Part shown: in pieces, positions 2-63,000 of the stretch | How the letters are laid out: each line of letters starts with the position of its first letter | Position numbering within the stretch: the first letter of the stretch is position 1 | Assembly: GCA_018817385.1 (NCBI GenBank) | Contig: JAHIUA010000035.1 | Location: 1-64,000, forward strand | Length of the DNA stretch: 64,000 nucleotides | Direction of reading: 5' to 3' | DNA from: Pseudomonadota bacterium | GTDB taxonomy: Bacteria > Desulfobacterota > Desulfobulbia > Desulfobulbales > Desulfocapsaceae | Notes under the pieces: model-generated | Told to the model about the DNA's origin: nothing | The model's database searches: none | Seen by the model: only the letters and a program-made list of their open reading frames with translations | Translations under genes and position numbers: made by a program

Positions 2-238
2 GGCAGATGTGATATGAGATTCGCAAAACGTTTATTAAATGATAACACTCTAACCCAAATTGGACTGACAGAATCTCCTGCTGTAGATTCAGATTTATAC
101 ACTTCAGTACAGGAACAGTTGGCTTCTCAAGAAGTTATTGATAATCAGAATTATAGCTATTCTTTGACGTGGGAATGTGGTGGATTTGGAACTTATGACA
201 ATCTTTATGCTGTAAGATTCAAATATCGCCTGCAGTGA
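2..238 (+). CDS. C-terminal part of a secreted hypothetical protein (5' end outside window)
   Basis: The frame is open from the first bases of the window, so the start probably lies upstream; an internal ATG sits at 14. No known function is recognised. The tail (an IDN-x2-Y-x-Y block, then an aromatic-rich VRFKYRL end) resembles the C-terminus of the secreted protein at 1612-2205 in order and spacing (IIDNLQYTYG, then a VTYTL end). I infer a paralogous pair. Codon use is AT-rich compared with most of the window. The stop lies directly against the truncated mscS remnant, so this gene may sit at a recombination boundary. Confidence 0.5.
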   Translation, partial: GRCDMRFAKRLLNDNTLTQIGLTESPAVDSDLYTSVQEQLASQEVIDNQNYSYSLTWECGGFGTYDNLYAVRFKYRLQ

Positions 239-239
239 A

Positions 240-595
240 GAGCGGCGGGTCGATTTGGTGTTCGGTATCGGCTACGGTGACGACATCAGCCATGCAGCCA
301 TGCCCGACACGTGCTTGCGGATGTCGTCAGCAAGCACCCTTTGGTGTTACCCCCCCCGGAACCAGTCATCCAGGTTCATGAGCTGGCGGAGTCTTCAGTA
401 AACTTTATCTGCCGTCCATGGGCGAAAAAAAATGATTACTGGGATCTGACCCGGATGGTTAAGGAACGTTTTGATGCTGAGGGCATTTCCTTTCCCTTTC
501 CACAACAGGATGTGCACTTCTTCCAGGAATCACTGCAAATGCTTTCAAAATCCTCCTCCACTGCAGAACCGCAACAAGTGCACGAGGTAACTTGA
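240..595 (+). pseudogene. mscS: Fragment of an MscS-type mechanosensitive channel gene, truncated and frameshifted
   Basis: Two frames together encode the C-terminal cytoplasmic part of a small-conductance mechanosensitive channel: RRVDLVFGIGYGDDISHA in one frame (from 243), then VLADVVSKHPLVL, SSVNFICRPWAKK, DYWDLT and ISFPFPQQDVHF in another (311-580). These are typical MscS C-terminal motifs. The frame change coincides with an 8-bp tandem duplication of AGCCATGC (288-295 and 296-303). Removing one copy restores DDISHARHVLADVV in one frame. All transmembrane and pore parts are missing, because the fragment starts right after the upstream ORF. It is therefore a 5'-deleted and frameshifted remnant. 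Confidence 0.85.
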
Positions 596-1090
596 CGGAT
601 ATCGACGACGACAATGCTGTTTAAAAAACACTAAGGGTGAAATTTGACTCGTAAAGGAATGCATTCATTCTGATGCTTCCCTTACGGGTCCCATGCCGCC
701 GTCTGTCAGGGCGGCGATGAGATCACAGCCTGTGCCATGGAATATTCGCTGAGGTCCTGATTAGTAGAGTATTGTTTCCTGCCCATGACGCCAACCTCAA
801 ACGCCAGTGAGTGGCAGAGCGAAACGCAGATAGCCCTACCCTATCTGTCGAAGTTGTGCATTTCTCCTGCCTCTTCGAGAGGAGATGCCTCCTTTGCGCC
901 TCCTCTTTCAGTCCCTTCATGAGTTAGTGCGGTCATGGAGAAAAAGATAATCAGGATTAAGGTAAATCTGTGACTTCTCCTCAATGTTTAATATTGCCAC
1001 CGGCAGCCTCTTAACGTCCTGTTCTATCACCATCTTTTTACAATGGTCATTTGTACCCATGTAAAACGTTAGGGAATTATGTTATAGTAC
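596..1090. other. Intergenic stretch without a supportable gene
   Basis: No ORF here looks like a protein gene. An imperfect stem-loop lies at 650-686 (CGTAA/TTACG with GGAA/TTCC inside), just after the mscS remnant. A GC-rich CCGCC/GGCGG hairpin follows near 700. At the right end, TATAGT (1083-1088) preceded by TG is a possible extended -10 for the structured RNA that follows. Confidence 0.4.
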
Positions 1091-15695: not shown

Positions 15696-15999
15696 CCTTT
15701 CTCACGTCCCCTCACAGTTCTCTTTCAAGGTGGCCTCAAATCAAAGCCCCTCCCCGCGTCAAAACAAGGCGGCAAAGCCACGCTCCCTACATAATAAAGA
15801 TGAGCGATTAATTTTTTTTCTTTTCCAGGTAACTTTTTTCCGACCTGCCGCCTCATAACTCATGAAAGTAACACATTGAGACAGAATTAATACCGTAACC
15901 AAATGGTCCTGTCTAATGAGCAAGATCAGGAAGAATAAATAAGGCTGCATCCTGAATCTCAGTGAATGATGCAAGGCAATTTAACAGTGGGAGAATACT
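15696..15999 (+). other. Intergenic leader before the molybdoenzyme genes
   Basis: About 300 bases with no gene. It should contain the promoter of the molybdopterin oxidoreductase operon, possibly one read by the sigma fusion upstream. I could not pick a convincing -35/-10 pair. GGGAG lies 6 bases before the ATG at 16000. Confidence 0.4.
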
Positions 16000-43099: not shown

Positions 43100-43415
43100 T
43101 CTCCGAACATGATGTCAAGCAGCTGAACGACAACGGAAATTGGCAAAGCCAAAGACTGCCCCCGCTTCAAAACAAGCCTGATTGAGACAAAGAGGGACGT
43201 CAGTCCTGCTGAGGTATCAGTCATAGGTCATAGGCTTACAAAGGCAACTCCAACCCAACCTTTGATAACGAAGCTCGCTCCAAAGATCATTGCAGAGGAT
43301 ACTTGAAGAAAAAGGGGTCAGCCCCCTGACCAATACTTTCTGTCAATACCTCACCGATTATGCTTTAATACAGGAAAACCATTATCTTCTTCAATCGCAA
43401 AGGAGAGCCTGCCAG
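43100..43415. other. Intergenic region between divergent genes
   Basis: Separates the GntR gene (minus) from the CopA-like oxidase (plus). It holds a small hairpin GGTCAG-CCCC-CTGACC (43316-43331). An in-frame extension of the oxidase ORF back to 43290 is not credible as coding, because it would precede the signal peptide. I see no copper-box repeat. Confidence 0.4.
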
Positions 43416-45785
43416 ATGATCTATTTCAAATTTTCCCTCACCACTTTTTTCCTTTTTTCCCTTTTTGTCCCCTCTTCCTTCCTCCAGGCCGCCACCGTTG
43501 AATACCATCTGACCATAGCCCAAGAAGAGGTCAATTTTACTGGAAAAACGGTGAGTGCCATGACCATCAATGGGGCTATACCCGGTCCCGTTCTCTCTTT
43601 CAGGGAAGGGGACCTCGCCAGAATCCACGTCCACAATAAAATGGCAGTGGAAACCTCCATCCACTGGCATGGCCTCCTGGTGCCACCGGAAATGGACGGA
43701 GTTCCCAATATCAGTTTTCCTCCCATTGCCAGCGGTACGACCTTTACCTACGAATTCCCCATCCGCCAGAACGGCACCTACTGGTACCACTCCCACACAA
43801 ATCTCCAGGAACAAAGAGGGGTCTATGGGGCCATTGTCATAGAACCACAGGCCCCACACATCATCGCAGACAGAGAGCATGTCGTACTGCTCTCTGACTG
43901 GACTGATGAAAATCCCCACACGGTATTGCGCACCCTGAAACGAGGCAGCGAATGGTACAGCCTGGAAAAAGGAAGCGGCCAAAGTATCTTTGGGGCCGCA
44001 AAAATTGGAAAAGTCAGAGACTATTTCAGCAGAGAACTCCAGCGCATGCCGCCCATGGATATTGCCGATGTTGCCTATGACTGCTTTCTGGCCAACGGTC
44101 AGGCCGAAAGTTTTTTGCCAGCGAGCCCAGGAGAAACCGTACGCTTACGGATCATTGATGGCTCAGCCACCACCTATTTCCACCTGGAATTCAGTGGCGG
44201 TCCCCTGAACATCATCGCAGCAGACGGCCAAGGGGTGGTACCGGTGGCCAAGGAACGTTTTCTCATCGCTGTTGCCGAGACCTATGATGTCCTTGTTACG
44301 ATACCGGAACATGGCGCCTATGAACTGCGGGCCACTGCCCACGATGGTTCCGGCTATTCCTCTCTCTGGCTTGGAACAGGGCCCAGACACTATGCGACCA
44401 ATCTCCCTAAACCCAATCTCTACCAGGGGATGGGCCATTTCAATCTGGCAGATGTCTTTTCTCTTACCCCGGCAGGGGCCATGGGCATGGCAGAGGACAA
44501 GGTTAAACGAGGAGAGTTGGACATACCGGGCATGGCTGGAATGGCTCCCATGCAGGGCATGAAACATGGTCGGCACAGGCCTGATTCGTCCTTGCTTGAC
44601 ATGGGGAGTCATCAAAGCAAGGCAGATCACTTATTACAGCAGCAGATGCCCTCTTCCCACCAAGGCCATGGCGTTCTCCAGGCACCCCCTGCGGAAATGT
44701 CCGACAGCCAGACCGCACTTCCCGAACGGTCTGGCAAACGTTTCGGGAGCACCTTTCATTTCCTGGGAACAGATATCTCTTCGGCAGGCGATCTGGCAAT
44801 TGATGGTATGGATCCACGCCGGCCCCTCACGCCTTACAAAGAGCTTCGAGCCTTTTCCAAGACCACCTTTCATAGCGACAAACCAAGGCGTGAGATCCGT
44901 CTCACCCTTGATGGTGACATGGAGCGCTATATCTGGACCCTCAACAACAAAACGCTCTCGGAAGATGACTCCATTCGCATCCGGGAAGGAGAAGAGGTCC
45001 GCTTTATTATGATCAACCGAACCATGATGCATCACCCCATGCACCTGCATGGGCATTTTTTCCGAGTGATCAATGGCCAGGGAGCCTTCGCCCCTCTTAA
45101 ACACACGGTGGACGTAGCACCCATGACGACCACCGTCATCGAATTTAAGGCCAACGAGGTTGGTGACTGGTTTTTCCACTGTCACCTTCTCTACCACATG
45201 AAAAGTGGCATGGCCCGGGTGGTAGAGTATGATACCTTCACCCCAGACCCTGCAGTTATGGCTCTACGACCCAAGCTCTACACCGACCCCTGGTACTTCT
45301 GGGGAGAAGCTGATCTACTCAGCCATATGAGCGAGGGCTCTCTACAGGCCAGCAATACCCGTCACATCATCTCTGTCCAATGGGAGGCTGGCTGGCAGGA
45401 TGTGGAGACAAACGAATGGGAAGGCACCCTGCGCTGGGATTACTCCCTCAACCGCTTTACCACACTCTTTATCGGCCAGTATCTTGAAGGAGATGAAGAG
45501 GATGAATTCGAAAAAATCAGGGGCATTGCCGGCCTGACCTATCTCTTACCCCTATCCATCGAATCAACCCTGTGGATTGACAACGAAGGAGAGGCCCGCA
45601 TAGATCTGGGAAAGAGTTTTACCCTGACCCCTCGCCTCTCCCTCTATGGCGAGCTGGAATATGACACCCTGAAGGATTGGCAGGGCAGCAGCGGCTTACG
45701 TTATATGGTAAACAAAAATCTCTCCCTGATCGGCAGCTACCACTCCGAATTTGGTTTTGGGGCCGGTCTCCAGTTGCGCTTTTAA
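43416..45785 (+). CDS. CopA-like multicopper oxidase with C-terminal beta-barrel-like domain
   Basis: A 789-residue secreted copper oxidase. The signal peptide (residues 1-25, MIYFKFSLTTFFLFSLF) is Sec-type with no twin arginine. All four copper motifs are complete: HWHG, WYHSH, HHPMHLHGHFF and HCHLLYHMKSGM, giving type 1, 2 and 3 sites. A Met/His-rich insert (PGMAGMAPMQGMKHGRH, ~365-430) should bind extra Cu(I). The last ~180 residues depart from CopA: alternating beta-strands (WEGTLRWDYSLNRFTTLFIGQYL, LYGELEYDTL) ending LQLRF with a terminal Phe, as in outer-membrane barrels such as CopB. I infer a CopA-barrel fusion held at or in the outer membrane. The ATG at 43416 has AAGGAG 10 bases upstream. 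Confidence 0.88.
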   Translation: MIYFKFSLTTFFLFSLFVPSSFLQAATVEYHLTIAQEEVNFTGKTVSAMTINGAIPGPVLSFREGDLARIHVHNKMAVETSIHWHGLLVPPEMDGVPNISFPPIASGTTFTYEFPIRQNGTYWYHSHTNLQEQRGVYGAIVIEPQAPHIIADREHVVLLSDWTDENPHTVLRTLKRGSEWYSLEKGSGQSIFGAAKIGKVRDYFSRELQRMPPMDIADVAYDCFLANGQAESFLPASPGETVRLRIIDGSATTYFHLEFSGGPLNIIAADGQGVVPVAKERFLIAVAETYDVLVTIPEHGAYELRATAHDGSGYSSLWLGTGPRHYATNLPKPNLYQGMGHFNLADVFSLTPAGAMGMAEDKVKRGELDIPGMAGMAPMQGMKHGRHRPDSSLLDMGSHQSKADHLLQQQMPSSHQGHGVLQAPPAEMSDSQTALPERSGKRFGSTFHFLGTDISSAGDLAIDGMDPRRPLTPYKELRAFSKTTFHSDKPRREIRLTLDGDMERYIWTLNNKTLSEDDSIRIREGEEVRFIMINRTMMHHPMHLHGHFFRVINGQGAFAPLKHTVDVAPMTTTVIEFKANEVGDWFFHCHLLYHMKSGMARVVEYDTFTPDPAVMALRPKLYTDPWYFWGEADLLSHMSEGSLQASNTRHIISVQWEAGWQDVETNEWEGTLRWDYSLNRFTTLFIGQYLEGDEEDEFEKIRGIAGLTYLLPLSIESTLWIDNEGEARIDLGKSFTLTPRLSLYGELEYDTLKDWQGSSGLRYMVNKNLSLIGSYHSEFGFGAGLQLRF

Positions 45786-46096: not shown

Positions 46097-47641
46097 TTAA
46101 GGTCGTGAGTTATTTATTATGGCCGGCAGGAACATTGGCCACGGGAAGATATCAGGTCCAGCCAGCTTGCTGATAAAAATATCTTCAAACCCGGCACTAA
46201 CAAGATTAACCACCCCATCTCCGGGATCGAAGTCGGCACTACCCTGAAAAAAACCAATACTGTAAACATTACCCGCAGAATCGACGGAGACACCATAGCC
46301 ATAATCGTCTGACGTCCCGCCCATGGCCCTGGCCCAGAGGAAATCACCGCGACTGTTCAGCTTGCTGACATAAATATCGGCATTGCCGACACTGGTGCGC
46401 TCGAAAACCTGCCCCCCCCCCAGGCCGGGGTCAAAGTCGGCAATGCCCTGAAAGAAACCGGTGCTGTAAACGTTACCGGACGAATCGACGGAGATCCCAT
46501 ATCCAACATCGGAAAAAGCCCCTCCCATGCCTTTGGCCCAGACAAATTTGCCACCGCTGTCGAGCTTGCTGATATAAATATCACCACTGCCAGCGCTGGT
46601 CAGGTTGAACATTCCAGTATCCCCTGGGTCAAAATCAACCGTGCCATTAAACCAGCCGGTGCTGTAAACATTGCCGGCAGCATCTACGGAAACGGCCTGA
46701 CCAACGTCTTCTGAAGACCCGCCCATAGCTCTGGCCCAGACAAAATTTCCGTTGCTGTCGAGTTTACTGATATAGATATCATAAGTTCCGTTGCTGCTGG
46801 TCAGCTCAAAAATTTCTCCAGGCCCAGTTCCTGGATCAAAATCGACCGTACCCTGAAACCAGCCGGTGGTATAAATGTGACCTGAAGAATAGAGGGATAT
46901 GCCTAAGCCAACATCTGCTGCTGCCCCACCCATTGCCTTTACCCAGACAAAGTTCCCACTGTTGTCCTGTTTGCTGATAAAAATATCCTCTACACCCTCA
47001 CTGGTAAGAAAAAAGCTGCCTCCACCCGGATCAAAGTCAACCGTGTTCTTAAAATAGCCGGTGGTATAGATATTACCGCCGGAATCCACCAAAACTCCAT
47101 TGCCATAATCGTCCGTAGTCCCGCCCATGGCCCAGGCCCCGACAAAGTTTCCCCTGCTGTCCAGCTTGCTGATAAAGACATCGCTACTCCCTACGCTGGT
47201 CAGCTCAAAAACAGCTGCTCCGGGATCAAAGTCGACCGTACCTCCGAAGGAGCCGGTGGTGTAAACATTGCCTGCAGAATCTACAAAGATGCCAACTCCG
47301 ACATCATCATAAAGACTTCCCAGTCCTCTGGCCCAGACAAGGTTACCGGTGCTGTCCAACTTGCTGATAAAGATATCATTATTGCCGGCGCTGCTCAGGG
47401 TTGTCATGCCAGCACCCGGATCAAAATCGACCGTACCCTGAAAATAGCCGGTGCTGTACACATTACCGACAGAATCAACGACAATACCGTAGCCAATATC
47501 ATCTAAGGTCTGCCCCATGCGTTTGGCCCAGACAAAATCGCCATCTGCAGCCTGAACGAGAGTGGCAGATGGCATCATCAGGAAACTGGAAAAAAGGATT
47601 AACGACAGAATGAATCTGGAAAAGAAGGTATATATTTTCAT
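46097..47641 (-). CDS. Secreted seven-repeat beta-propeller (SBBP-type) protein
   Basis: A 514-residue protein with a signal peptide (MKIYTFFSRFILSLILFSSFLMMPSATLVQA) and seven tandem repeats of about 65 residues of the form FVWAxxMGG-x3-DxGxGIxVDSxGNVYxTGxFxGTVDFDPG, ending DIFISKLDSxGN. This is the SBBP repeat, and seven copies fit one closed seven-bladed propeller. DFDPG loops may bind calcium. The C-terminal tail IFPWPMFLPAIINNSRP is outside the repeats and is shared with two neighbours. GAGGA precedes the ATG. Likely a surface-located binding or structural protein of the copper-oxidase island. Confidence 0.88.
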   Translation of the reverse strand: MKIYTFFSRFILSLILFSSFLMMPSATLVQAADGDFVWAKRMGQTLDDIGYGIVVDSVGNVYSTGYFQGTVDFDPGAGMTTLSSAGNNDIFISKLDSTGNLVWARGLGSLYDDVGVGIFVDSAGNVYTTGSFGGTVDFDPGAAVFELTSVGSSDVFISKLDSRGNFVGAWAMGGTTDDYGNGVLVDSGGNIYTTGYFKNTVDFDPGGGSFFLTSEGVEDIFISKQDNSGNFVWVKAMGGAAADVGLGISLYSSGHIYTTGWFQGTVDFDPGTGPGEIFELTSSNGTYDIYISKLDSNGNFVWARAMGGSSEDVGQAVSVDAAGNVYSTGWFNGTVDFDPGDTGMFNLTSAGSGDIYISKLDSGGKFVWAKGMGGAFSDVGYGISVDSSGNVYSTGFFQGIADFDPGLGGGQVFERTSVGNADIYVSKLNSRGDFLWARAMGGTSDDYGYGVSVDSAGNVYSIGFFQGSADFDPGDGVVNLVSAGFEDIFISKLAGPDIFPWPMFLPAIINNSRP

Positions 47642-47839: not shown

Positions 47840-49489
47840 TCAGGGTTGCTTGCTCTTAATTGGCACAAAGAGACTCCACGGGAAAGAATAAAAACTGGCC
47901 GAAACATTTTTCACCTGATTCATAGTCACCTGGCACAAGAGTTCCATCCCGGTACAGTCACCTGACCAGCCAGCAAACCGACTGTTGGATGCTGGAACGG
48001 CGGTCAAGGTCACAAGTCGGCCCTCAACATATTCTCCCTGGCAGTCAACTGGACAGCTTATCCCGTGAGGGTCACTGACAACACTGCTGTCACCTCCTCC
48101 GCTTACATTGACATTCAACGAGTAAGTGGTAAACAAATCATAAGAAGCTGCAAGGTTGAGCAGCCCATAGCCATAGACATTATCAGCACCGAAGTCCCCG
48201 AGATCGGTAGCTGACTGCATAAGTACAGTTTCCAGTTCTGCGACAGTAAGCTCGGGATTTACGCTGATCAGCAGCGCCATGGCTCCAGCGATATGGGGGC
48301 CGGCAATGGAGGTTCCGGAAACAAAGGCGTAGGAATCGAGATAGGTTCCAGCCGAGGTGAGATCGGCAGTCCTGATGGTAACCCCAGGTGAGACAAGTTC
48401 GGGAAAAATAGTCCCGTCACATGCTGAAGGACCACGGCTGCTGGTACTGGTAACCTGAAGCAGTTCGTCAACACTTCCAACTGCAAAGCTTTCCGGATAG
48501 TTTGCCAGGCTAACACTTGTGGAAGGGTTGGGTCCAGCATTCCCTGCCGAAAAAACAACTGCCACACCTGCACTCTTCAGGGCTTGAATGTCTGGCCGGA
48601 ACTCCAGTTCTTCGAAGCACTGATCAACAGCCCCATCAAAGCCCCAGGAATTGTTTACCACATCAGGAAGATCGTCCGTATCCGGATCACCATCTGGATC
48701 AAGAAGCCACTGAAACCCCTGATGAATAGCACTGTACGAAGTAAATCCATCATTATTAAACAGCTTCACCGCAATCCACCTGGCATCGGGGGCAACTCCA
48801 ATGGCTGAGCCACCTGCATCACCTCCGACCATGACCCCCATGGTTTGGGTCCCGTGACCTGACGTATCATAGGGTGTGGAATATTCTCCGTTGGGATCGA
48901 ACCAGCTATTACTGCCGCCCCGCCATCGGGGAGCCAGATCAGGGTGAGCAGCGTCCACCCCGGTATCCATACTGGCAACGACAACCCCGGTCCCTGTGTA
49001 TCCAAGAGCCCAAAGAGCAGGGGCATTTATTGCCTCGAGATTCCATTCAGGGACACCGCTCAAGGCGGGAGAGGGCAGAGGCAGACTCAGGATAGCATCA
49101 AGACTCAGGCTCTGGACATCCGTTCTCCTTGCCAGTTCGGCCACCTGGTCGGCCCGAAGGGTCACAGCCATTCCGTTAACGATCCACAATGGCGTAACTT
49201 TTGCTACCTTGTTTTTCCTTAAAAACTCACGAAGGGATTTTTGCGTCTTCCCGGCCTTATCCCGCAAGGCCCTGTTAATTTTTGACCTGCGTACCTTTTT
49301 ATCCTTGTCTGTGAATTGGCTCAGATTCTCCTGGTCACTCAAGGTAACAATGACCGAAATCTCTTCTTCAGGGCTCATGTCCTTGAGAGTTAGAAGGAGA
49401 TCTGGGTGAATACTGCCTGCCTGTGAAGATGAGACAGCCCATTGAATACACACAAGGCCAATAAACAGTATCTGGCTTCTTTTCATCAT
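47840..49489 (-). CDS. Secreted subtilisin-like (S8) serine protease
   Basis: A 549-residue protease with a signal peptide (cleavage near SSSQAGS), an inhibitor-like prodomain (~25-130, ISVIVTLSDQENLSQF), and an S8 catalytic domain with Asp (VASMDTGVDAAHPDL), His (DTSGHGTQTMGVM) and Ser (VSGTSIAGPHIAGAM). After ~445 comes an InlB/bacterial-repeat-type beta domain with paired cysteines (ISCPVDCQGEYVEGRLVTLTA; GWSGDCTGMELLC). The end is FPWSLFVPIKSKQP, a tail shared with neighbours. It could process co-encoded surface proteins. Confidence 0.93.
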   Translation of the reverse strand: MMKRSQILFIGLVCIQWAVSSSQAGSIHPDLLLTLKDMSPEEEISVIVTLSDQENLSQFTDKDKKVRRSKINRALRDKAGKTQKSLREFLRKNKVAKVTPLWIVNGMAVTLRADQVAELARRTDVQSLSLDAILSLPLPSPALSGVPEWNLEAINAPALWALGYTGTGVVVASMDTGVDAAHPDLAPRWRGGSNSWFDPNGEYSTPYDTSGHGTQTMGVMVGGDAGGSAIGVAPDARWIAVKLFNNDGFTSYSAIHQGFQWLLDPDGDPDTDDLPDVVNNSWGFDGAVDQCFEELEFRPDIQALKSAGVAVVFSAGNAGPNPSTSVSLANYPESFAVGSVDELLQVTSTSSRGPSACDGTIFPELVSPGVTIRTADLTSAGTYLDSYAFVSGTSIAGPHIAGAMALLISVNPELTVAELETVLMQSATDLGDFGADNVYGYGLLNLAASYDLFTTYSLNVNVSGGGDSSVVSDPHGISCPVDCQGEYVEGRLVTLTAVPASNSRFAGWSGDCTGMELLCQVTMNQVKNVSASFYSFPWSLFVPIKSKQP

Positions 49490-49744: not shown

Positions 49745-50185
49745 CTACTGAACGAGTAGATTCTCCACTCGAAAATCGCCTATAACCACCGTCACCTTAT
49801 CCCCTGCCCGAACTAAGCCTCCTGAATTACCAAAGAACATCCAGTAAATACGACCCTCCTGGGGTTTATTCGATGTCCGCAAAGGCCCAACTTTACCCAT
49901 GCTCGGTACCGCCAAGACCTTTGTACTCTTCTGATCAATGAGATAAGGCTTGTTGGCACGAACAAAAAGGGTTTCGGCCTTTTTTGAATCCAGTACGCGA
50001 TAGCGAAAATCAAGCATATGACCGGCCGCTGACAAGCGTAAGCTGGTAATTTCTATGCCCCATTTTTCTTGTATTTCATTTGCGACCCGTTGCTCACCTG
50101 GAACAACGGCAACACAGGCTGTCATGAAAAAAAACACCCCCAGCAACCACGCGCCAAGAATCGAGCTTGAAACAAACCTTTTCAT
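49745..50185 (-). CDS. Probable lipoprotein of unknown function
   Basis: A 146-residue protein. The ATG at 50185 (MKRFVSSSILGAWLLGVFFFMTAC) gives a lipoprotein signal peptide with an MTAC lipobox at the end of the hydrophobic core. The remainder is a small mixed domain (IEITSLRLSAAGHMLDFRYRVLDSKKAETLF, then RIYWMFFGNSGGLVRAGDKVTVVIGDFRVENLLVQ). No family is recognised. It lies within the multicopper-oxidase operon and may serve as a membrane-attached accessory. Confidence 0.75.
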   Translation of the reverse strand: MKRFVSSSILGAWLLGVFFFMTACVAVVPGEQRVANEIQEKWGIEITSLRLSAAGHMLDFRYRVLDSKKAETLFVRANKPYLIDQKSTKVLAVPSMGKVGPLRTSNKPQEGRIYWMFFGNSGGLVRAGDKVTVVIGDFRVENLLVQ

Positions 50186-50251: not shown

Positions 50252-51268
50252 CTACAATCCTAACCTTATTCTGCCACTTGTAATGGCCGGAACGAACATC
50301 ATCCACGGAAATGGTTTGATATCCGCCCTGAAATACACCAGCATCCCTCCTCCTGGAGCACCGTTGCTGCTCAGGGACAGGCTGCGATCATAAAGAGCGT
50401 AGGTTCCCGTTTCAAGCGGACGCCATCGTGCGTCAAGCGTTTTACCTGCCGCAAGTAAAACAGAATATTGCTCCCTTGCATAGGGATAAGGATTGCCGTC
50501 CTCGGCAATAATCTTCATATGTGGTCCCTGCAAGACTGGGACATGCGACATAAGGCCGGCATTTACAAACCGGAGAAGCAGGTCTTTTTTATCAGTAGCT
50601 CCTCCAAAGACAACCGGTACCGGTTGAGCGGCGGTATAGGCCTTACCATTAACCAGAAAATATTTGGGCTTATACGTAAGCGGAGTTGCAGCTGATAGCG
50701 TTCCATGTAAGGCTGGATCGATTTCACTGAAAAGAACCAGAACATCCCCTATGACCTGGCTATAACTTCCCACCGTTAGAGCGCCGAACAACCCCATATG
50801 AATCTGCTTGGCAGGGTTACTTCCACTCTGATACAGGAAGGTTCCGGATTTGAGATTACTCCAGGTATAGCTTGCTGTCCCTCCGGCTGCAGCGGCCTCA
50901 TGGGTAAAGGCGGTAACCCTGTCTCTCCCCTGCAGATCAGTCATTATTACAGGATTCAGCACTGCATTCTGTCCCGGGATCACCAGGGAAACAGGCTCAC
51001 TGAGACAATTGCGAAGTAATATGGTCAGATTGCCGCCAGGAGCTACGACCTGTAAGGGGCCGACATCCCAGACAACCGGTCCCATGGGACATGATCCCGG
51101 ATCAGGGATAAACCCCCACATTGGAATCGGGGTGGGCGAATCTGGAGGAGTCCATTCACCTTCCACGGCAGCGAGGTTCAACGCCGAGGCAGATGTAGCT
51201 CCAAGGAAAAACACAAGCAATAGAATTACCGGCGTTCGCAGGGTTATCAATAATGTCGTTATCTTCAT
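50252..51268 (-). CDS. Two-domain cupredoxin-fold protein without copper-ligand motifs (multicopper oxidase-like C)
   Basis: A 338-residue secreted protein (signal peptide ending SASALN) with two cupredoxin-like domains. They align in outline with the next protein: the segment SGTFLYQSGSNPAKQIHMGLFGAL stands where multicopper oxidases have the HxH/HCH motif, and SHVPVLQGPHMKIIAEDG stands where the neighbour has HPFHHHG-SHSRVIARDG. Nearly all copper histidines are absent, so it is probably a structural partner. The C-terminal tail KPFPWMMFVPAITSG matches two other proteins of the locus. AGAGGG precedes its ATG, and it lies 19 bases after the gene for protein B. Confidence 0.8.
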   Translation of the reverse strand: MKITTLLITLRTPVILLLVFFLGATSASALNLAAVEGEWTPPDSPTPIPMWGFIPDPGSCPMGPVVWDVGPLQVVAPGGNLTILLRNCLSEPVSLVIPGQNAVLNPVIMTDLQGRDRVTAFTHEAAAAGGTASYTWSNLKSGTFLYQSGSNPAKQIHMGLFGALTVGSYSQVIGDVLVLFSEIDPALHGTLSAATPLTYKPKYFLVNGKAYTAAQPVPVVFGGATDKKDLLLRFVNAGLMSHVPVLQGPHMKIIAEDGNPYPYAREQYSVLLAAGKTLDARWRPLETGTYALYDRSLSLSSNGAPGGGMLVYFRADIKPFPWMMFVPAITSGRIRLGL

Positions 51269-51286: not shown

Positions 51287-52624
51287 TTAAGGTATCGGGA
51301 CACCTGGCGCTTCGATAACTAACATTGTCATCATCCCGCCAGGAAAAATATCATAATTGGTCATCTCTTTTTCAGTGTGAGAATGCCACATGTAGGTATA
51401 TCCCCCATTGGGATTCAACCCTCCCTCACCCGGCGGCAGAGAACCAAGTAATCCAAGAAAAGGACTGCCACTGTAAAATCCACCAAAAGTCAGTTCTTGT
51501 GTTATAGGCAGCTGTACAGGAATGGGCTGGTAGTGATCTGGACAATATTCAAATGTCGTGTCGTCAAAATCATCTCCATCATTGGTGGTACAGGTATGGA
51601 CGAATTCAGGGCCTTCTGCGGGCGTTCCGTATATATCCCAGCCCAGTCCCTTGCCAGTCCACTCAAATATTGTATCTATGGTGCTCCCAGGTTGCGACTG
51701 GACGGTAAAAACCTCATGGCTGAGATCAGGTCCCCTGCCTGGAGCGCTTTGCAGAAGTCGTCCATCACGGGCGATCACACGGGAATGACTTCCATGATGA
51801 TGGAAAGGATGGAGATCTCGTCCACCACCAACGATTCTCATCAACAACTTCTCCCCCGGATGCATTCGAGGCATGGAATTATATGGCTGATTGGGAAGCC
51901 AGGGAACTCCTGCATCAGACATGGTATCAGGAGCTGCCCGGCCGTTGATGAACCAGAGCACCGGGAAAAAGTTTGCCAGATAATCAGTTGCGGCCATTGA
52001 TTCCGGGCCAAATTGTTCCACCCTCTGGTGAACCCGGGGGTCCATTTCACTGAGAAGAAAGAGATACTCTTGCTCAAAGCGTGTATCCTGATGATTATAG
52101 GCAAAATTGCTTCCGGAAGAGGGACGGACTATGATCGCTCCGAACAACCCCATTTCAAGCTGGAGAGCGGAATCTGTGCCGCTGTAATAGGTATAGGTTC
52201 CCGGGTTGGTGGCTTTAAACTGATAGCTCACTGTTCCTCCCGGTATTGCTTCCCTGGTCAGAACTCCTGGAACCCCTGAGTTACCGGGAAGAACCTTGGC
52301 CTGATGACCAGGAAAAACTATAGAAACATTAGGGGCGACTCCCGTACCTGCAACGGTCAAACTGTTTGTCAGTTTCACCGTTACCAGAGCACCTTGATTG
52401 ACAACCAGTGTCGGGCCTGGATACTGAGCCAGACCGGCACCATTGGCGTACCCCCAGATCAAATAACTTCCGCCGTCCGGAGTTGAAACATGTCCGGTCG
52501 TTGCTGTCAGATTAAAGGTTGTTCCGCTGATACCATTGATCCCTGCTCCTGCACTGACTGTCAACAGGATCATGAACACGGCACCGAGAACAGTAACCTG
52601 AATTACCGTTTTAATTATTCTCAT
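51287..52624 (-). CDS. Two-domain multicopper oxidase-like protein B (half of the trinuclear copper site)
   Basis: A 445-residue secreted protein (signal peptide ending VSAGAGI). The first cupredoxin domain has lost the ligands (SIVFPGHQAKVLPG; GTYTYYSGTDSALQLEMGL). The second keeps DLHPFHHHGSHSRV (H-x2-H-x-H-G) and MWHSHTEKEM (H-x-H), without the type-1 cysteine. These are the ligand sets normally found in the first domain of laccases. It therefore offers half of a type 2/3 trinuclear cluster but no type-1 site. A partner must supply the rest; protein A is encoded 14 bases upstream. The ATG at 52624 has AAGGAG 6 bases before it. Confidence 0.85.
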   Translation of the reverse strand: MRIIKTVIQVTVLGAVFMILLTVSAGAGINGISGTTFNLTATTGHVSTPDGGSYLIWGYANGAGLAQYPGPTLVVNQGALVTVKLTNSLTVAGTGVAPNVSIVFPGHQAKVLPGNSGVPGVLTREAIPGGTVSYQFKATNPGTYTYYSGTDSALQLEMGLFGAIIVRPSSGSNFAYNHQDTRFEQEYLFLLSEMDPRVHQRVEQFGPESMAATDYLANFFPVLWFINGRAAPDTMSDAGVPWLPNQPYNSMPRMHPGEKLLMRIVGGGRDLHPFHHHGSHSRVIARDGRLLQSAPGRGPDLSHEVFTVQSQPGSTIDTIFEWTGKGLGWDIYGTPAEGPEFVHTCTTNDGDDFDDTTFEYCPDHYQPIPVQLPITQELTFGGFYSGSPFLGLLGSLPPGEGGLNPNGGYTYMWHSHTEKEMTNYDIFPGGMMTMLVIEAPGVPIP

Positions 52625-52638
52625 CTCCATCTCCTTTT

Positions 52639-53877
52639 TCAAATGCTGACAACGATTTCTGTCATCATGCCGCCGTACGCTTCCGTTCCATTGGCTAAAT
52701 AATTCAGGTTGGTGGTATAAAGAAAGTACCTCGTCCCCGGGGCTGCATCTGCAGGGATGTCAATGATGGCATCTACAGATTCCCCCCCGCCGAGGGTGAC
52801 TGAGTTTGTCTTGTAATACATATTCTTACCATCCGGTCCCCGTAACAGTTTCGCATCCATCCCAACCACTGTCATGGACACGCCCATAGATGCCAAGGTA
52901 AAGAAGCGCGTCACATCCAGGCTTGAAATACGCAACAATATCCTCTCTCCCGCTGCACCGGTAATCAGGGAACTCTCAGGCTGAGAAACCTTCCCCCCAT
53001 TTTCGGCAGGCGCAGAAAGCGGGTCAGGGTTGATCGTATCGGGATACCCCCTCCCATTCAGCATAGGATAATCATCAAGCATGAGAGCAAAGGGCAGTGG
53101 CTGAACACTTGCACTCGCATTATGAAATTCCGAGTCAAACGAGCCGATCTGTATCGGGTACTCCTGGTCATAACCGGTTGAACCATCACCGTCATTATAG
53201 ACAAACTTGTCGTAGGTCTTTGATTTGTAGACATACGGAGTTCCGTTTTGGACAGGTCTTACATAGAGGTTTCCAAGCATACCCATTTGCATGTGTTCGG
53301 CAGCCTCGACATGACAATGATACATATAGGTTCCCGGATCATTTACCTTATAATAATAAGTCAGACTGGAACCCATATTGATAGAAATCGAGGCATCGGG
53401 CACACCATCAAAGATTGGTGCCGCCTGAGGAAACCCGTGATAATGAACGGTATGAGGATCAAAAAGATCAGGACGTATCGCCATACCGACATTGGTCAGG
53501 GTCAGATAGAACTCGTCACCTTCATCAAGCACAATAAGAGGTGCGGGAAACGTTGCCGCCAACATACCCTCTTCCATAACCGTAACCGGATCGGCCGGGT
53601 TCACCGGATTAGTTGGAATACCTGTGAGATCCGAAAACCCAAAGATATATTGGGACAAACCATCGGCCATGGTGACGAAACCATCTCCTGCACCAAGGTG
53701 CAGGCATTTGATGTTCGGAGAGGGTTGCACTTCCCCCATCGTATCCCACTTTGCATCTCCATCGATATCACCGGGACATTGCACAGAGATCCCGGCATTC
53801 GCTGAACGCACCGTCAGCATGGACATAAAACCGCCGAGAAACACTGCTATGATTGTATACTTAAGCTTAGTTGTCAT
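52639..53877 (-). CDS. Two-domain multicopper oxidase-like protein A (type-1 site plus other half of trinuclear site)
   Basis: A 412-residue secreted protein (signal peptide ending ANAGI). The first cupredoxin domain carries PHTVHYHGFP (H-x2-H-x-H-G) and YMYHCHVEAAEHMQMGM (HCH with downstream His and Met), giving a full type-1 copper site and half of the trinuclear site. The second cupredoxin domain has no ligand motifs (FFTLASMGVSMTVVGMDAK). This complements protein B encoded immediately downstream. GAGGTG precedes the ATG. The N-terminus has a CPGDIDGD calcium-loop-like segment. Confidence 0.87.
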   Translation of the reverse strand: MTTKLKYTIIAVFLGGFMSMLTVRSANAGISVQCPGDIDGDAKWDTMGEVQPSPNIKCLHLGAGDGFVTMADGLSQYIFGFSDLTGIPTNPVNPADPVTVMEEGMLAATFPAPLIVLDEGDEFYLTLTNVGMAIRPDLFDPHTVHYHGFPQAAPIFDGVPDASISINMGSSLTYYYKVNDPGTYMYHCHVEAAEHMQMGMLGNLYVRPVQNGTPYVYKSKTYDKFVYNDGDGSTGYDQEYPIQIGSFDSEFHNASASVQPLPFALMLDDYPMLNGRGYPDTINPDPLSAPAENGGKVSQPESSLITGAAGERILLRISSLDVTRFFTLASMGVSMTVVGMDAKLLRGPDGKNMYYKTNSVTLGGGESVDAIIDIPADAAPGTRYFLYTTNLNYLANGTEAYGGMMTEIVVSI

Positions 53878-53891
53878 ATATCACCTCTCCT

Positions 53892-56800
53892 CTACTGTTC
53901 CCGCCTTCCCTTTATCCCTGGCATGCGACCCCAGAAGAAGACAAAAGCCAGGCCAGCCAGTATCAGCCCAACCAACGAATACCTGAATATAGTGCTGTTC
54001 GCTTCACCTTGTTGTCGGGTGCCAGTCAGTCCTGTTCTTGACTGATCAACCTTTGCCTCCGAAAGGACGCGTTCCGAGCCATACTCAGAGAGGGAGGTTT
54101 CGCCCTGTCCCGAATTCGTCATGGCTGGCATACTTTTTTTCTCTTCCGCAAGCGACAAGGAACTATCTGGCACCACATCCTGCCCTTCATCCTCCAGAAT
54201 CACCCCCATGACCAGAGACTCACTTTCCTCAAGCGAGAGATCCTCCTCGTCAGAGTATTCCGTGGCATTCCTGGTTATTGGCAGCAGGCCGCCCTTTTCT
54301 GTGTTTTCCTTTTCACGAAGGGTTGACTCGCTTGGCCCAGGAATAATACTCTCCAAAACCCCGGCCAGTTTTTCTCTCACCCTGACAATCAGGGTCTCAG
54401 CTTCCGACATCGAATCGATCGGCATGCTTGCCACCCCTTGCGAGACAAGAGACGGTGTTGTCAATACCGAGTCGACCTGCACGCTTTTCTTCTCTACGCT
54501 TGCAAGATCTTCCGTTGCCGACCTTGAGTCAAGCAGCGCACTCGCCACACCAGCTGAGACAAGAGCAGACGTTGCCGGTATCACCTCCACCGGCACAGGG
54601 CTTACCGCCCCAAGGCCTGCAAGCTGAAGAGGGGTCCCTATCTTGACCGCACCCAGACTTAAGACGACTGCCTGAGCTGCCTGTATCTCGTCAGCGCCGA
54701 TATCCGATGGAGCTGTAAGATCAACAAACGGACGGGTCTCTCCATCAAAATCGGAGACGAGTTCAGGGAAATCCGCCAGATATCCATCCGTACCAGTGTT
54801 CCAGGCCTGGCCCATGCCAATGTGATAATCGCTTCCCACCATCGTAATGGGGGTAAAGCGGATATTAATGGCATTGCCACCTTCATCCACAACTGTGGTT
54901 GACTCGATGAAGTTAAAATATGCCCCTAGGAATCCTGGAGGACCCTGGTTGTTTGTCATATCCGTTCCGCCCAAGGTATAGTCGAACCCAGTGGCAGGAT
55001 TGGTGAGGCTTGTCAGGATACTGTAGTCCGGGTTCATATGGAGATCTGTGTTGGAGAGCGATCCCAATACATGAATGTCCCAATACTGACCAGCTGGATT
55101 CAGAGCCAGGCCTCCGGCTCCGCTATTCAATGACGCATCATTAAAGAAAGAGCGATTCTGCCAGATGATATTATTCACCAGCAGGGGGTCGGAGTAGATC
55201 GGCTCAGAAAGTCCGAACAAGCCTTGCAGGATGCTGCTATGGATAGCGGCCACGATTCCTGCAGGTTGTGGTGTAGAGTCCGCCTGTCCGGCCTGAAATG
55301 AGAGCGCGCTCGTGGCGGTGCTGTCGTTGTGAGCAATGGTATTGTTTACAATATTTACCCTGGCAACATCCTGGAGGGAAATGCCTCCTCCCGAATTGCC
55401 GGCCACGTTATTGACAATCATGTTATTAAAAATGTTCAACCTGTACCAATTGGTGTCATCGGCAGGTGCAATCCTCACGTCCTCAGCATTTATGGCAAAG
55501 GCTCGAATGCCGCCGCCGTTTCCGGCACCACTTATATTCCCCTGAATCAGGTTACCATCAATGGTCACCGAACCTGACCCCGTTCCGCCAGCCACATCGC
55601 CGCCGATAAAGATGCCGCCGCCGTCACCGGCGATTGCCAAGAGAGCACCGAAGAAGACCTCGTTGAAAAGGATCCGATTCTTTTGAATAACATTGTCACC
55701 AAGACTCAAGCCCCGGTGCTGGATACCGCCACCGTTAAAGCGACCGAAGTTCCCAGTAATGATGTTTCCATCCACCAAATAACCTTCGCTGCCCTCATTC
55801 AATGAGATACCACCGCCACCCTGGATACCGCCGTTTTTGTGAATCTTGTTATGGCGGATAACAATAGTGTCGTTATTTGCATCAACTCCGGTGGCGGATG
55901 TGCCGATGGCGATGCCACCGGCAAAATTGCCTTGGTTGCCGGTAATATTGTTGTTGCTGATTTCCAGGCCAATGGCACCACTGACAGCGAAGATACCGCC
56001 CCCGGCTTTGGATCCGGAGATGGTGAAGCCGTCAATAGCAGCCTGCCCGGGAACAGAAAAAGGATTACCAGGGTTAAGGGTTTGCGTTGGCAACTCTGGA
56101 GGAAATTCTGTTTCTCCGATGACGAGAACACCAGGAGCTTCACCTGCCGAGAAAGGATTTCGGCCGAGGAAAGCCACATATTCCTGAGCACCCAAGGCAT
56201 CTACCCGGGTGTGCCAGGCAGCCAAACGATCAATCGGGATGGGGTTAGCGTTGATGAACGAACCTGCTCCGACACCCTGTAAGCGCACGGGCCTGTCCAT
56301 GATAACGTTTTCATTAAACTGGCCTGTGCCAACAAGGATAATATCGCCAGCGACTGCACTATCGACAGCGCCCTGAATGGATCCTCCACTGGCAACAGAA
56401 TGAACAGTTATGGCACTACAGTCCAAGATGTTCAAGGTCACGCCAAGTTCTGAATGCAGGCCATTGTCCCTGGTCACCACGATCTGTCCCGTGCTGCTGC
56501 CCGGTGGCACAGTGGCCACAATCTGCAAGCTGGTCCAGGTGACCACGTTGAGCGGATTGCCATTTAAGGTTACCGTACCAGTCCCCTGGCCAACCCCAAA
56601 ATCTACCAGCCGGGTAATGACTGGTTCCGTGCTTAATGACGGATAGAGAGGATTCCGAATCGTGATGCTTCCTCCTGGAGGGGCATCAATGGTAAGAGTT
56701 TGAGGCAGTGCTGCTGTGTCCGTACAAACGAGGGGGCCTGGTTGAGACCCGGTCGTCACCGAGTAGATCACCGGGGTACCATTGGCAGGACCAGTATCAA

Positions 56801-59800
56801 TCCGCACCTCATTGGCAGTAAAAGCCGCAACCGGCACAATGGGCGTGTCCAGATAAGAGGTAGCCCCAGGCATATAATTAAACGTCCAGGGGGTTACAGC
56901 GTAATCCGGGTCATAAAATGGGTCCGGGGTCACACCATCGGCCAGAAAAGGATCATTAATGGTCAAGGTGAGCATACTGGGAGACACCCCGGTGGGTGAT
57001 GCCACGTTGACTGTATAGGTTGAAGGAAGCATGGCGTTAAAACCACCGAACTCATCGGTGTACACTCGAGCCAGTTCGTTCCCTGCCCAATCACTGAAAG
57101 ACACGGGAAGCCAGGCTGCTGCCAGCTTTTCGCCAAAAACAGGGCTGGCCTGATTGAACTCGGCACCCAAGTCATTGTTCACAAAGCCAACGGCCCTTGC
57201 CGCCTTGGGAACTTGAGTAAAAAAGAAAAAATCAGCCGCAGCATTCTGCCCTGTACTCAGAGTAACCTGCTTCTTGTCGCAATACGGTCGAGAAGCCCCA
57301 GCAAAAGGTGCTGGAGTGACCCCGTCAAATGACATGACGGCAGGCACGGCGTGGAGATCCCCCACACAAACTGGCGGAAGAAGAAGCGTACTTGGGACAT
57401 AGGTGTCACCAAAGTCTACGTTCTTATCCTCCTCCTTAAGCAATTCATAGCCATATGGCGTAACCGCTTCGACAATATAGTTTCCGCCCGGAAGGGCAAG
57501 TACTTCAGTGCTTCCCGAATCAATTCCACCGGGAAAGTAGGAGTTAAAGGCATAACCACCATCAAAGAGGCCGGGCCGGACCTGATTCCAGGTTCCGAAA
57601 CCGTCGGCGCACTCATTAATCGGACCGAGGCCAGCCAACTCTGGCAGATCCTGGATACAGCCACTGGGCTTGTTATCATCCCAGCTGTCCGTGGTGGTGA
57701 TTTGAATAGCGTCGCCAGAATTAAAATCGCCAGGGGTCTGCCCCGGATAATTGAGATCAGAGTCTTCCAGACCAGGGAAGCCCGTATAAATCGGGTTTAC
57801 GGTGATACCATCGTCGAGAAATGCATACATGGGAGCCCACTGAAACGGGTAGTTATCCACGTCTGCCAAGGTAACAATGCCATCACTGTTGAGATCGTCA
57901 ATGCCCCCATCACTGCCGGGAAGGAGAGTTATGTTATCAACCTTATCTTCATAGAGATTCACCTGTACCCGCGGGATACCAGGTTCCCAACCCTCACCCA
58001 CAGCGTATCGCGGATCATTCTCGGCGCGGGTCACGGCATAGAAAACAATACCGGAAACACCACCATTTTCCCCAACACCATAACTGCTCTTCCCCCATTC
58101 GATCAAATTGGTCTGGCCGAGAAAAAGGTGCATGGCCTGGGTGAGAACCGGACCGGTCTCAGAACGATAATCCAAGGTACTGTACTCGTTGAAAGGATCT
58201 GCTGGATCCTGCGGCTGTGGATTCTTGTTCCCGTCTGCAGGCCAGGCCGGCCCCGGGATAAGACCGCCATCATCAACTGCCGTGGTCATGCCTGTGGCCT
58301 TGAACCGGGCATAGTCGACCTCCACTACCAGCCATTTGAAGAAAGGAAAGACCTCATCAAAAGGCACAAAGCCGTCAATATCAGTGGGAAAGGCCTGATA
58401 AATGGTACCATCCCGAAATCTAAGGTTCACATTCTGCTCCGGAATACCAGGTTCTCCGGGATCCCGAAAGCCGTCTTCATCTGCATCAAAAAACACGTAA
58501 TTTTGCAGTGTGCCGAACCAACGAAAAGTCAAAACGTCTCCAAGAACCACAGCTTCACCTGTCCCACTTGGGCCCGGTGGAATGGTAACGGTGTAGAAGC
58601 CAAAGAGGGTATCCAAATATGTGTCCCAGGTAACCAGCTGGTAGGTCCCGGGAGGAACGTTTTCAATAAGAAAAGAACCGTCTTCGTTACAGGGCGCCGC
58701 ATACTTTCCTGCTTCACCGAGCAAGGCCCCAGGCAGAATCAGCAGATCGTTGATGCCAACCCACCCCCCTGTCACAGGTACCCCGGGAAAGAACCCCTGG
58801 AGTGTAGGAGGCCTGGAAAAGTGGTTCATCCTCAGGGTTCCGCTAATGGTTCCGGTTGCCGCAGGAGGGGTCTGATTCCACTCCAGGGTATTGAACGTCT
58901 GGCCTTTAAAGTTGGAAGTGGCTGGGCTGACCTTTACAAAGCCGTAAAAGACGTGGTTGAATCCGGTGCCAAATCCCTCTACAAAAAGCTTGGGTTCGTT
59001 TGCCTTCACCCATGCATCCACCGTGGGCGTCCCCTCTATTGTCGAGGTCTGGGACCATGTCATGGCAGAGCCACTATCGTCAAACCCCGGGGGAACCAGT
59101 TTGAGGCCATATTTTCCAGGAACCAGATATTTGATCAGGGCTTCACCGACCTTCAGGTTATATGGATTGGCAGCACCACCCAGATCAAACTTTTCCTGGG
59201 TCATGGTGACGATGGCGCCCGTTCCCATTACAGCAACCGAGGGGCTGCCGTCGGTCTCAAATAGAGGCGCTCCGGTTCCATCAAAAGCATATTGCGTCCC
59301 TAAGGGGTTACCAAAGGCATCCTGAGAAACCTGACCTCCGTTATCGGACAGGATCACATGCGCACCTCCGAGACCTTGATCATGCTCATCAAAAATATTA
59401 TTGATGGGGTTGTGATCCACAAAGGCAAAAATCGAAATCTGGGCTGTAGGCAGGGGCAAGGGGTTCACCGTGACGCTAACGGTGGCTGGATTTGGCGCAA
59501 CCACCGTCGTACCACTGATTGAATAGCCTGAATCAGGAAGCACTGTAATAAAGTACCGCCTGTTTGGGTCCAACGGGTTTCCAGCGGCATCAAAGTCAAT
59601 GGTTACACTACTGACACCAACTTCCTGTCCTTCAGCCACGACTGGGGCATGGCTGTTATGAATGTCCGTACTGATACTGACACGCACCGGGATACCAGGA
59701 ATGGTGACGTTGGTGTTGTCTTCCTCCAACAACCAACGAAAACCGCCACTAATGGGAGCCCCATCAGGATCCACCACATTGACTGTAACTGCCTGGACGT

Positions 59801-62985: not shown

Positions 62986-63000
62986 TTGAATACCCTTCAA

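Follow-up and report, generated by a model that had tools for sequence, protein, structure and literature searches.

The window analysed here is a stretch of 64,000 nucleotides, positions 1 to 64,000 of contig JAHIUA010000035.1 (assembly GCA_018817385.1, from a bacterium of the Desulfocapsaceae), and we are concerned with a cluster in it that encodes three proteins of the multicopper oxidase family, here called A, B and C, behind the gene for a giant protein, W. The copper ligands of one multicopper oxidase appear to be divided between two of these proteins: the first domain of A carries a type-1 site and four trinuclear-type histidines, the second domain of B carries the other four, and C has no ligand set. 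We think it quite probable that A, B and C form a ring descended from a duplicated gene for a two-domain oxidase of type C, that the ring has a single trinuclear site between domain 1 of A and domain 2 of B (A1:B2), and that it serves as an extracellular oxidase anchored by W.

Ligands and partnership of proteins A and B

The relatives used for comparison are the best 80 of 230 A-encoding stretches from one genome scan, which together with the window make 81 aligned rows, and counts for the A-B-C cluster are given per 80 loci. Each histidine was assigned to a type-1 or trinuclear site by alignment with the two-domain oxidase 3g5w and from general knowledge of the family. Both 3g5w, from Nitrosomonas europaea, and 2zwn, a metagenome laccase, are enzymes that we take to be of type C.

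In A all of the ligands are in domain 1, in the motifs H142-TV-H145-Y-H147-G and H187-C188-H189-(5)-H195-(4)-M200. The type-1 site consists of H142, C188, H195 and M200, and the trinuclear histidines are H145, H147, H187 and H189. These eight residues are unchanged in 81/81 rows, and every row has exactly one HCH. Each half of A has a multicopper oxidase domain by Pfam (Cu-oxidase_3 at 107-207 and Cu-oxidase at 300-387), and domain 2 has a full ligand set in none of the rows, with a histidine at position 326 in 5 of 81.

In the case of B the trinuclear histidines are H275, H277, H414 and H416, all in domain 2, which aligns with the second-domain histidines of 3g5w, and there is no type-1 site. 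Positions 272, 275 and 277 are His in 79/79 rows, two contigs stopping short of them, and 414 and 416 are His, with Ser at 415, in all of the 77 readable rows; those lacking 414 are the contig ends L022, L048 and L089, and L026, which has a stop inside B. H272 is not counted as a trinuclear ligand because it aligns with the type-1 His that the single-chain 3g5w also retains in its domain 2. Pfam again finds multicopper oxidase domains in both halves (67-169 and 254-290), and domain 1 of B has no full ligand set in any row: B147, the counterpart of A187 in the alignment, is Tyr in the window and His in 45 of 80 rows, and neither His nor Cys is found at B148 or B149 in any row. A single B row of the 81, that of L067, has an HCH, which is in a loop away from the copper site. 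In C the multicopper oxidase domains are found only weakly by Pfam, no row has a full ligand set and HCH occurs in 0/78 rows, and what is left are single histidines (C147 in 22, C151 in 66 and C242 in 56 of 77 rows).

A first-pass annotation, made from the window's letters, had read A as a type-1 site plus half of a trinuclear site in its first domain and B as the other half in its second domain with no type-1 site, each incomplete and the two complementary, and had called C ligand-free. The comparison with relatives upholds this for 81 A rows and all readable B rows, and for C in every row, the amendment being that H272 of B, which had been included in the half-site, is a type-1 remnant. As the ligands are invariant in 81 rows, chance or a frame artefact is ruled out as the source of the motifs.

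The copper nitrite reductase NirK has a type-1 site in domain 1 and a mononuclear type-2 site, with no HCH. It is ruled out as the identity of A by the invariant HCH and the eight trinuclear-type histidines, and by a score of 37.9 bits for A against NCBIfam TIGR02376, where the cut-off is 296.3. Acids near the site are also constant, D157 and E191 of A in 81/81 rows and E418 and E420 of B in 77/77; D157 and E191 are presumably at the positions of the acids that aid O2 reduction in Fet3p. Genome G244 has two A-B-C clusters on one contig in opposite orientation (L124, L125), and in one copy the B motif is HPFHPHS in place of HPxHxHG, with the histidines retained.

The genes for A and B occur together in all that was examined. 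B lies directly after A on the same strand at 80/80 loci, and the gap from the stop of A to the longest open frame of B has a median of 13 bases and a maximum of 491, negative values being frames that extend upstream (e.g. L049). In the window the ATG at 52624 is the likely start of B, and a TTG at 52642 is also open. C is found at 77 of 80 loci, and since the other three contigs end inside B it is present at all 77 that reach past B. The order on the minus strand, in the direction of transcription, is W, A, B, C, D, S8, where D is a small putative lipoprotein and S8 a subtilase. There is no B-C fusion at any of the 80 loci.

In a sample of 395 genomes of the phylum, with A counted at E <= 1e-20 and true B at at least 292 bits, A is present in 17 and true B in the same 17, and 4 of these 17 are also among the 80 loci. 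The first-pass annotation had named co-occurrence across genomes as a check, and for A and B it is borne out, with one B (that of L026) broken. G147 and G304, with B-profile hits of 78 and 87.5 bits and no A, were considered as cases of lone B and rejected: each encodes a two-domain oxidase of a single chain, with copper motifs in both of its domains, and one of these proteins matches 2zwn (E 2.1e-59) over residues 66-343. Proteins of this kind are encoded in L121 (7554-8654, with HCH in both domains) and L120 (8260-9159), and are useful as outgroups to the split family. A sample of 96 closer relatives gave 6 matches to A at 1e-10. Five of these, including the genome of the window, are true A followed by B, the B of G026 being cut by a contig end, and the hit in G020 was rejected as another oxidase (39% over one domain, in a 596-aa frame). 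G002, G073 and G026 of this sample are L025, L041 and L089 of the 80 loci.

The 81 A rows span nine phylum labels, which were taken from submitters' titles, and single rows from metagenome-assembled genomes are possibly misbinned; labels and spread were read from a quick tree. The labels are Pseudomonadota (33), Thermodesulfobacteriota (15), Myxococcota (11), Nitrospirota (6), Acidobacteriota (5) and Planctomycetota (2), three with one row each, and 6 rows that are ungrouped (three Hydrogenedentes, one the window). The nearest relatives of the window's A are from Desulfobulbaceae. The carriers are mostly metagenome-assembled genomes, with isolates that include Thiomicrorhabdus chilensis DSM 12352, Amphritea pacifica and Desulfopila sp. 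IMCC35006, and the carrier names, among them sulfur oxidisers, sulfate reducers and groundwater bacteria, suggest an extracellular oxidase that has gone unrecognised. A plasmid search gave eight large Cupriavidus/Paraburkholderia replicons with A-like proteins (39-42% identity, at least 80% coverage). Two were examined, one of Cupriavidus metallidurans CH34 and one of Paraburkholderia caribensis, and each encodes A and B, both bearing the ligand motifs, along with D and a C-W fusion. No copy of A was confirmed in the search of viral contigs.

Mirror-tree correlations are r = 0.71 for A-B, 0.63 for A-C, 0.70 for A-S8 and 0.74 for C-S8, and show a shared cluster history in which A-B is not singled out. 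Profile comparison (hhalign) relates B to C with E 2.7e-48 over 250 columns and A to B with E 4.4e-26 over 266 columns, and the three proteins probably have a common ancestor from which they arose by duplication.

Assembly, mechanism and alternatives

We envisage that one type C two-domain gene gave rise by two duplications to A, B and C, with complementary loss of ligands. The ancestral homotrimer would have had three equal interfaces, each with a trinuclear site and each formed where domain 1 of a subunit faces domain 2 of the following one. Today A, B and C would make a pseudo-threefold ring of six cupredoxin domains in which the A1:B2 site alone survives, the B1:C2 and C1:A2 interfaces having been stripped of ligands; if the three paralogues have replaced identical subunits then A1:B2 is the only ligand-bearing interface. 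C is related to B over 250 columns and has no ligand set, as would suit a structural third subunit, and this is the role that we propose for it. Electrons from the substrate, perhaps an extracellular metal ion or a phenol, though this is a guess, would enter one by one at the type-1 copper in A1, and pass via C188 and the flanking H187 and H189 to a trinuclear site made by four histidines of A1 and four of B2. O2 would there be reduced to water. The chains would be exported (the leaders of A, B and C were called by eye as hydrophobic), and W would hold the ring at the cell surface or in a matrix.

W-like sequence is present at 78 of 80 loci, the other 2 contigs beginning at or inside A. It is fused to A in 6 of the 80 (L052, L053, L063, L064, L092 and L095, the W part of L095 being a short, weak match) and to C in 5 of the 80. 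A C-W fusion is also present in the two replicons examined, and the loci listed for it are, in all, L075, L083, L087, L094, L097, L118 and L119. The fusion of W before A or after C suggests that it is part of the same assembly, as a scaffold or anchor. W was not part of the scheme of A, B and C in the first-pass annotation.

Structure models were made with AlphaFold as single chains, from loci with A and B in one frame and with the intervening stop read as Gly, L019 being the source of the A+B model. The A+B alignment (A4) has 78 rows, comprising 19 joined rows, from 23 in-frame loci, and 30 A and 29 B single rows from every second locus; L026, L080, L081 and L098 were excluded from the joined rows because B was short, an end was cut or there were extra stops. 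The three-protein alignment (A6) has 3 A+B+C, 16 A+B and 13 B+C rows. The A+B model has a mean predicted local distance difference test score (pLDDT) of 87.4 and a predicted template modelling score (pTM) of 0.86, and falls below 50 only in the linker at 384-416 and a loop at 121-129. Its A and B parts each match two-domain enzymes over about 250-280 residues, and for the B part the top matches in VIA are 2zwn (Z 30.5) and 3g5w (Z 30.2). The model as a whole matches the three-domain oxidase 6vow over 379 of 409 residues (2.8 Å, Z 25.3, model residues 24-829), and this needs parts of both chains, as the two-domain matches in the VIA list cover at most 281 residues. In three-domain oxidases the pair of domains 1 and 3 holds the trinuclear site, and the 6vow match would set domain 1 of A and domain 2 of B as such a pair. 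From this model and from homology we infer that A1 and B2 share one site.

There are several points that weigh against this arrangement. The 6vow match is one such row in the 50 VIA rows and gives range ends only, and in Foldseek the alignment of the A+B model to 6vow has a root-mean-square deviation (rmsd) of 14.2 Å, too poor a fit to speak either for the arrangement or against it. The joined model runs through a stop codon and the B leader, which has possibly favoured A-B contact. The A+B+C model is weaker (pLDDT 73.4, pTM 0.75), and its VIA matches include one to a three-domain oxidase across B and C (2xu9, 368 residues, 3.1 Å, 421-1151; by Foldseek a template modelling score of 0.67 by target, rmsd 12.6 Å), and also some that span A and C (26..957 and 21..1033), so that the ring is not proven. 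A1:B2 is not singled out by covariation (corrected mutual information, 78 rows): the enrichment in the top 50 pairs is 1.98 for A2:B2 and 1.36 for A1:B2, the highest-scoring individual pairs belong to A2:C2 and B2:C2, and A1:B2 leads only from the top 200 on (1.64, 1.74). There is no A-B fusion at any of the 80 loci. The acid at A E191 is not universal, being Thr in the Cupriavidus and Paraburkholderia copies (motif HCHITPPEH). Finally the B of L026 (9147-10268) has an in-frame stop just before a WHSH in the same frame, with A intact, and is either a broken gene or an assembly error. Our confidence in the ring with one A1:B2 site, and in the fuller proposal given below, is slightly lower because the structural support is one VIA row that Foldseek did not repeat, and because of the broken B of L026. 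Co-folding of A and B was a check put forward in the first-pass annotation, and as one chain it gave a confident model and one three-domain match, but other alignments do not have that arrangement.

The two-domain relatives are homotrimers, according to the text available to us of PMC13151041, and A and B could likewise be separate, a trimer of A being a type-1 electron carrier or copper binder and a trimer of B a half-site store or chaperone. We consider this improbable. In such trimers the trinuclear-type histidines, four in A1 and four in B2, would be left unpaired, and yet they are invariant; the two genes stay together; and in one match of the A+B model the relation of A1 to B2 is that of a complete oxidase. 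It is a different matter if A and B do meet, but at a site that is not an O2-reducing trinuclear cluster, such as one for nitrite reduction or with fewer coppers. The copper nitrite reductases share the fold and, among the structural matches shown, score best for the A part of the model (Z 26.6), and by name several of the carriers are sulfate reducers or denitrifiers. However all eight trinuclear histidines are retained, including both that flank the type-1 Cys, where nitrite reductases have HCA rather than HCH, and by sequence the top PDB matches of A domain 1 are the oxidases 3g5w and 2zwn, ahead of any nitrite reductase, making a site of this kind very improbable.

The position of C is more readily disputed. 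It could be outside the ring, with A:B or A2B2 as the unit and C pairing with W or serving in export or anchoring, as would fit with domain 2 of C being the least conserved domain (mean column majority 0.58) and with the C-W fusions. Against this are the relationship of C to B, its presence at every locus that reaches past B, and the pairing of C with B in the weak A+B+C model, which is three-domain-like. A place outside the ring is thus unlikely for C, though by no means far-fetched, and we infer that C is within the ring with A and B.

Taking the proposal at its full extent, we incline, without great assurance, to the view that A, B and C are a widespread and obligate heterotrimeric oxidase that has not been described before, with three paralogous chains and one shared site, docked on a giant surface protein. 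No split or heterotrimeric multicopper oxidase was found in the open-licence literature in the form available to us, which takes in neither subscription journals nor preprints. Textbook multicopper oxidases have their copper sites on one chain or repeated in a homotrimer. If the proposal is true, paralogues share one metal cluster, and an active site is built from complementary remnants on two chains. The split oxidase would be a living example of the triplicated intermediate assumed in models of ceruloplasmin evolution, and would stand beside the six-domain oxidases as an independent counterpart without fusion, its type-1 site placed as in type C rather than in even domains. The duplicate-then-lose path to six-domain oxidases could then be tested on living enzymes. 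It would also mean that many proteins, with 230 A-like stretches in one scan, are half-enzymes that would seem dead when expressed alone. The central claim is sharply drawn, concerns features that are conserved, and lends itself to a direct test.

Neighbouring genes

The features of the window are given in Table 1. D is found at 60 of 80 loci and the subtilase at 43; some of the misses of D are due to contig ends and others (e.g. L052 and L079) are not, and for the subtilase the misses are partly contig ends. Relatives of the PAS/sigma-54 activator are found upstream of W in L017 (54.7% identical) and L016 (40% identical). Promoter-like and terminator-like matches were no more numerous than in shuffled sequences.

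Table 1. Features of the window, with the cluster in order of transcription
Feature	Position	Strand	Basis
PAS/sigma-54 activator, candidate regulator	61144-63000	-	
Protein W, 1997 aa, with an SdrD_B-like domain; C-terminal half repetitive, with a weak NosD-type match	53892-59885	-	
Protein A, 412 aa, hydrophobic leader and two cupredoxin domains	52639-53877	-	open reading frame, Pfam
A H142-x2-H145-x-H147 (type-1 His and two trinuclear His)	53437-53454	-	sequence, 81/81 rows
A H187-C188-H189...H195...M200 (type-1 Cys, His and Met and two trinuclear His)	53278-53319	-	sequence, 81/81 rows
Protein B, 445 aa, hydrophobic leader and two cupredoxin domains	51287-52624	-	open reading frame, Pfam
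B H272-P-F-H275-H-H277 (two trinuclear His and type-1 His remnant)	51794-51811	-	sequence, 79/79 rows reaching there
B H414-S415-H416 (two trinuclear His; Ser replaces type-1 Cys)	51377-51385	-	sequence, 77/77 readable rows
Protein C, 338 aa; two cupredoxin domains, both degenerate and lacking a copper ligand set	50252-51268	-	open reading frame, weak Pfam
Protein D, 146 aa, follows C; judged by eye a lipoprotein (MTAC); no Pfam match	49745-50185	-	
Subtilase S8 with InlB-type repeat, after D	47840-49489	-	Pfam
CopA-like three-domain multicopper oxidase	43290-45785	+	TIGR01480, 457 bits (cut-off 479)

The window's CopA-like oxidase has a strong relative (1078 bits) in L074 at 14325-16766, after the A-B-C cluster. 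Two families recur near the cluster, one in 17 of 81 loci (e.g. L045, 9185-10828), for which the member tested is cytochrome c-like and periplasmic-binding-protein-like, and the other in 12 loci, for which the member tested is SCO1/SenC. A supply of copper is hinted at by the presence, near some loci, of genes for SCO1/SenC, NosL and cytochrome-like proteins.

C, the subtilase, a beta-propeller-repeat protein and others have in common a tag, FPW-x2-[FYLI]-[VLIF]-P, within about 25 residues of the C-terminus. It is present in the window in the open reading frames at 46097-47641, 47840-49489 and 50252-51268, and in loci L015 (which is the same as L025), L019, L020, L023, L024 and L074. Of 14 hits to the pattern 13 end long sense open reading frames, two of them being the same gene in L015/L025, and the 14th is in a 60-aa frame in L063. 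The tag may be a signal for sorting or anchoring proteins in Desulfobulbales, of a kind not yet characterised.

Comparison with known systems

With regard to the two-domain oxidases, the available text of PMC13151041 describes trimers in which the trinuclear site comes from two protomers, and types A, B and C that differ in the location of the type-1 site. The split oxidase is like type C in having two-domain chains, with the type-1 site in domain 1 (of A) and a trinuclear half in domain 2 (of B), and in having H-x2-H-x-H-G and HCH...H...M in domain 1. It is unlike type C in that type C chains carry both halves and make equal sites, whereas in the split family the halves are on different chains, with at most one site per ring. 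Two domains per chain are found in both A and B, an N-terminal type-1 site in A only, and both halves on the same chain in neither. The split oxidase would resemble type C in its working but it is not a member, because type C requires both halves on the same chain.

In the six-domain oxidases, as described in the part of PMC3600357 available to us, the type-1 sites are in even domains and the trinuclear site is between domains 1 and 6 or 2 and 3. The first-pass annotation had likened A, B and C to ceruloplasmin on three chains, and the likeness to ceruloplasmin and MnxG does extend to six cupredoxin domains and one trinuclear site surviving after loss of others (PMC3600357, with the same limit). 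It fails in that those proteins are one chain with type-1 copper in an even domain, whereas the split oxidase has three chains with the type-1 site in the first domain of A, an odd domain. The pairing of A1 with B2 is also off the domain order of ceruloplasmin if A-B-C are domains 1-6, and needs the cyclic order B-A-C, which is not the gene order. A ceruloplasmin cut in three is ruled out by the type-1 position and the domain order. The Foldseek alignments to ceruloplasmin are poor (rmsd about 16 Å for A+B and 34 Å for A+B+C), but this says nothing specific as those to three-domain oxidases are equally poor (about 13-17 Å), and the absence of ceruloplasmin from the 50 VIA rows shown per model excludes nothing.

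In the case of Mnx (MnxE3F3G), MnxG alone is the multicopper oxidase, and MnxE and MnxF are proteins of about 12 kDa for which the available text of PMC5622069 gives no similarity to characterised proteins. The split oxidase is like Mnx in being a multi-protein multicopper oxidase with neighbouring genes, and unlike it in that the Mnx oxidase is whole on one chain. Three-domain laccases and CopA/PcoA have the same summed ligand set as A and B, and the A+B model has one match to a three-domain oxidase, but these enzymes hold on one chain all of the ligands that are here divided between two.

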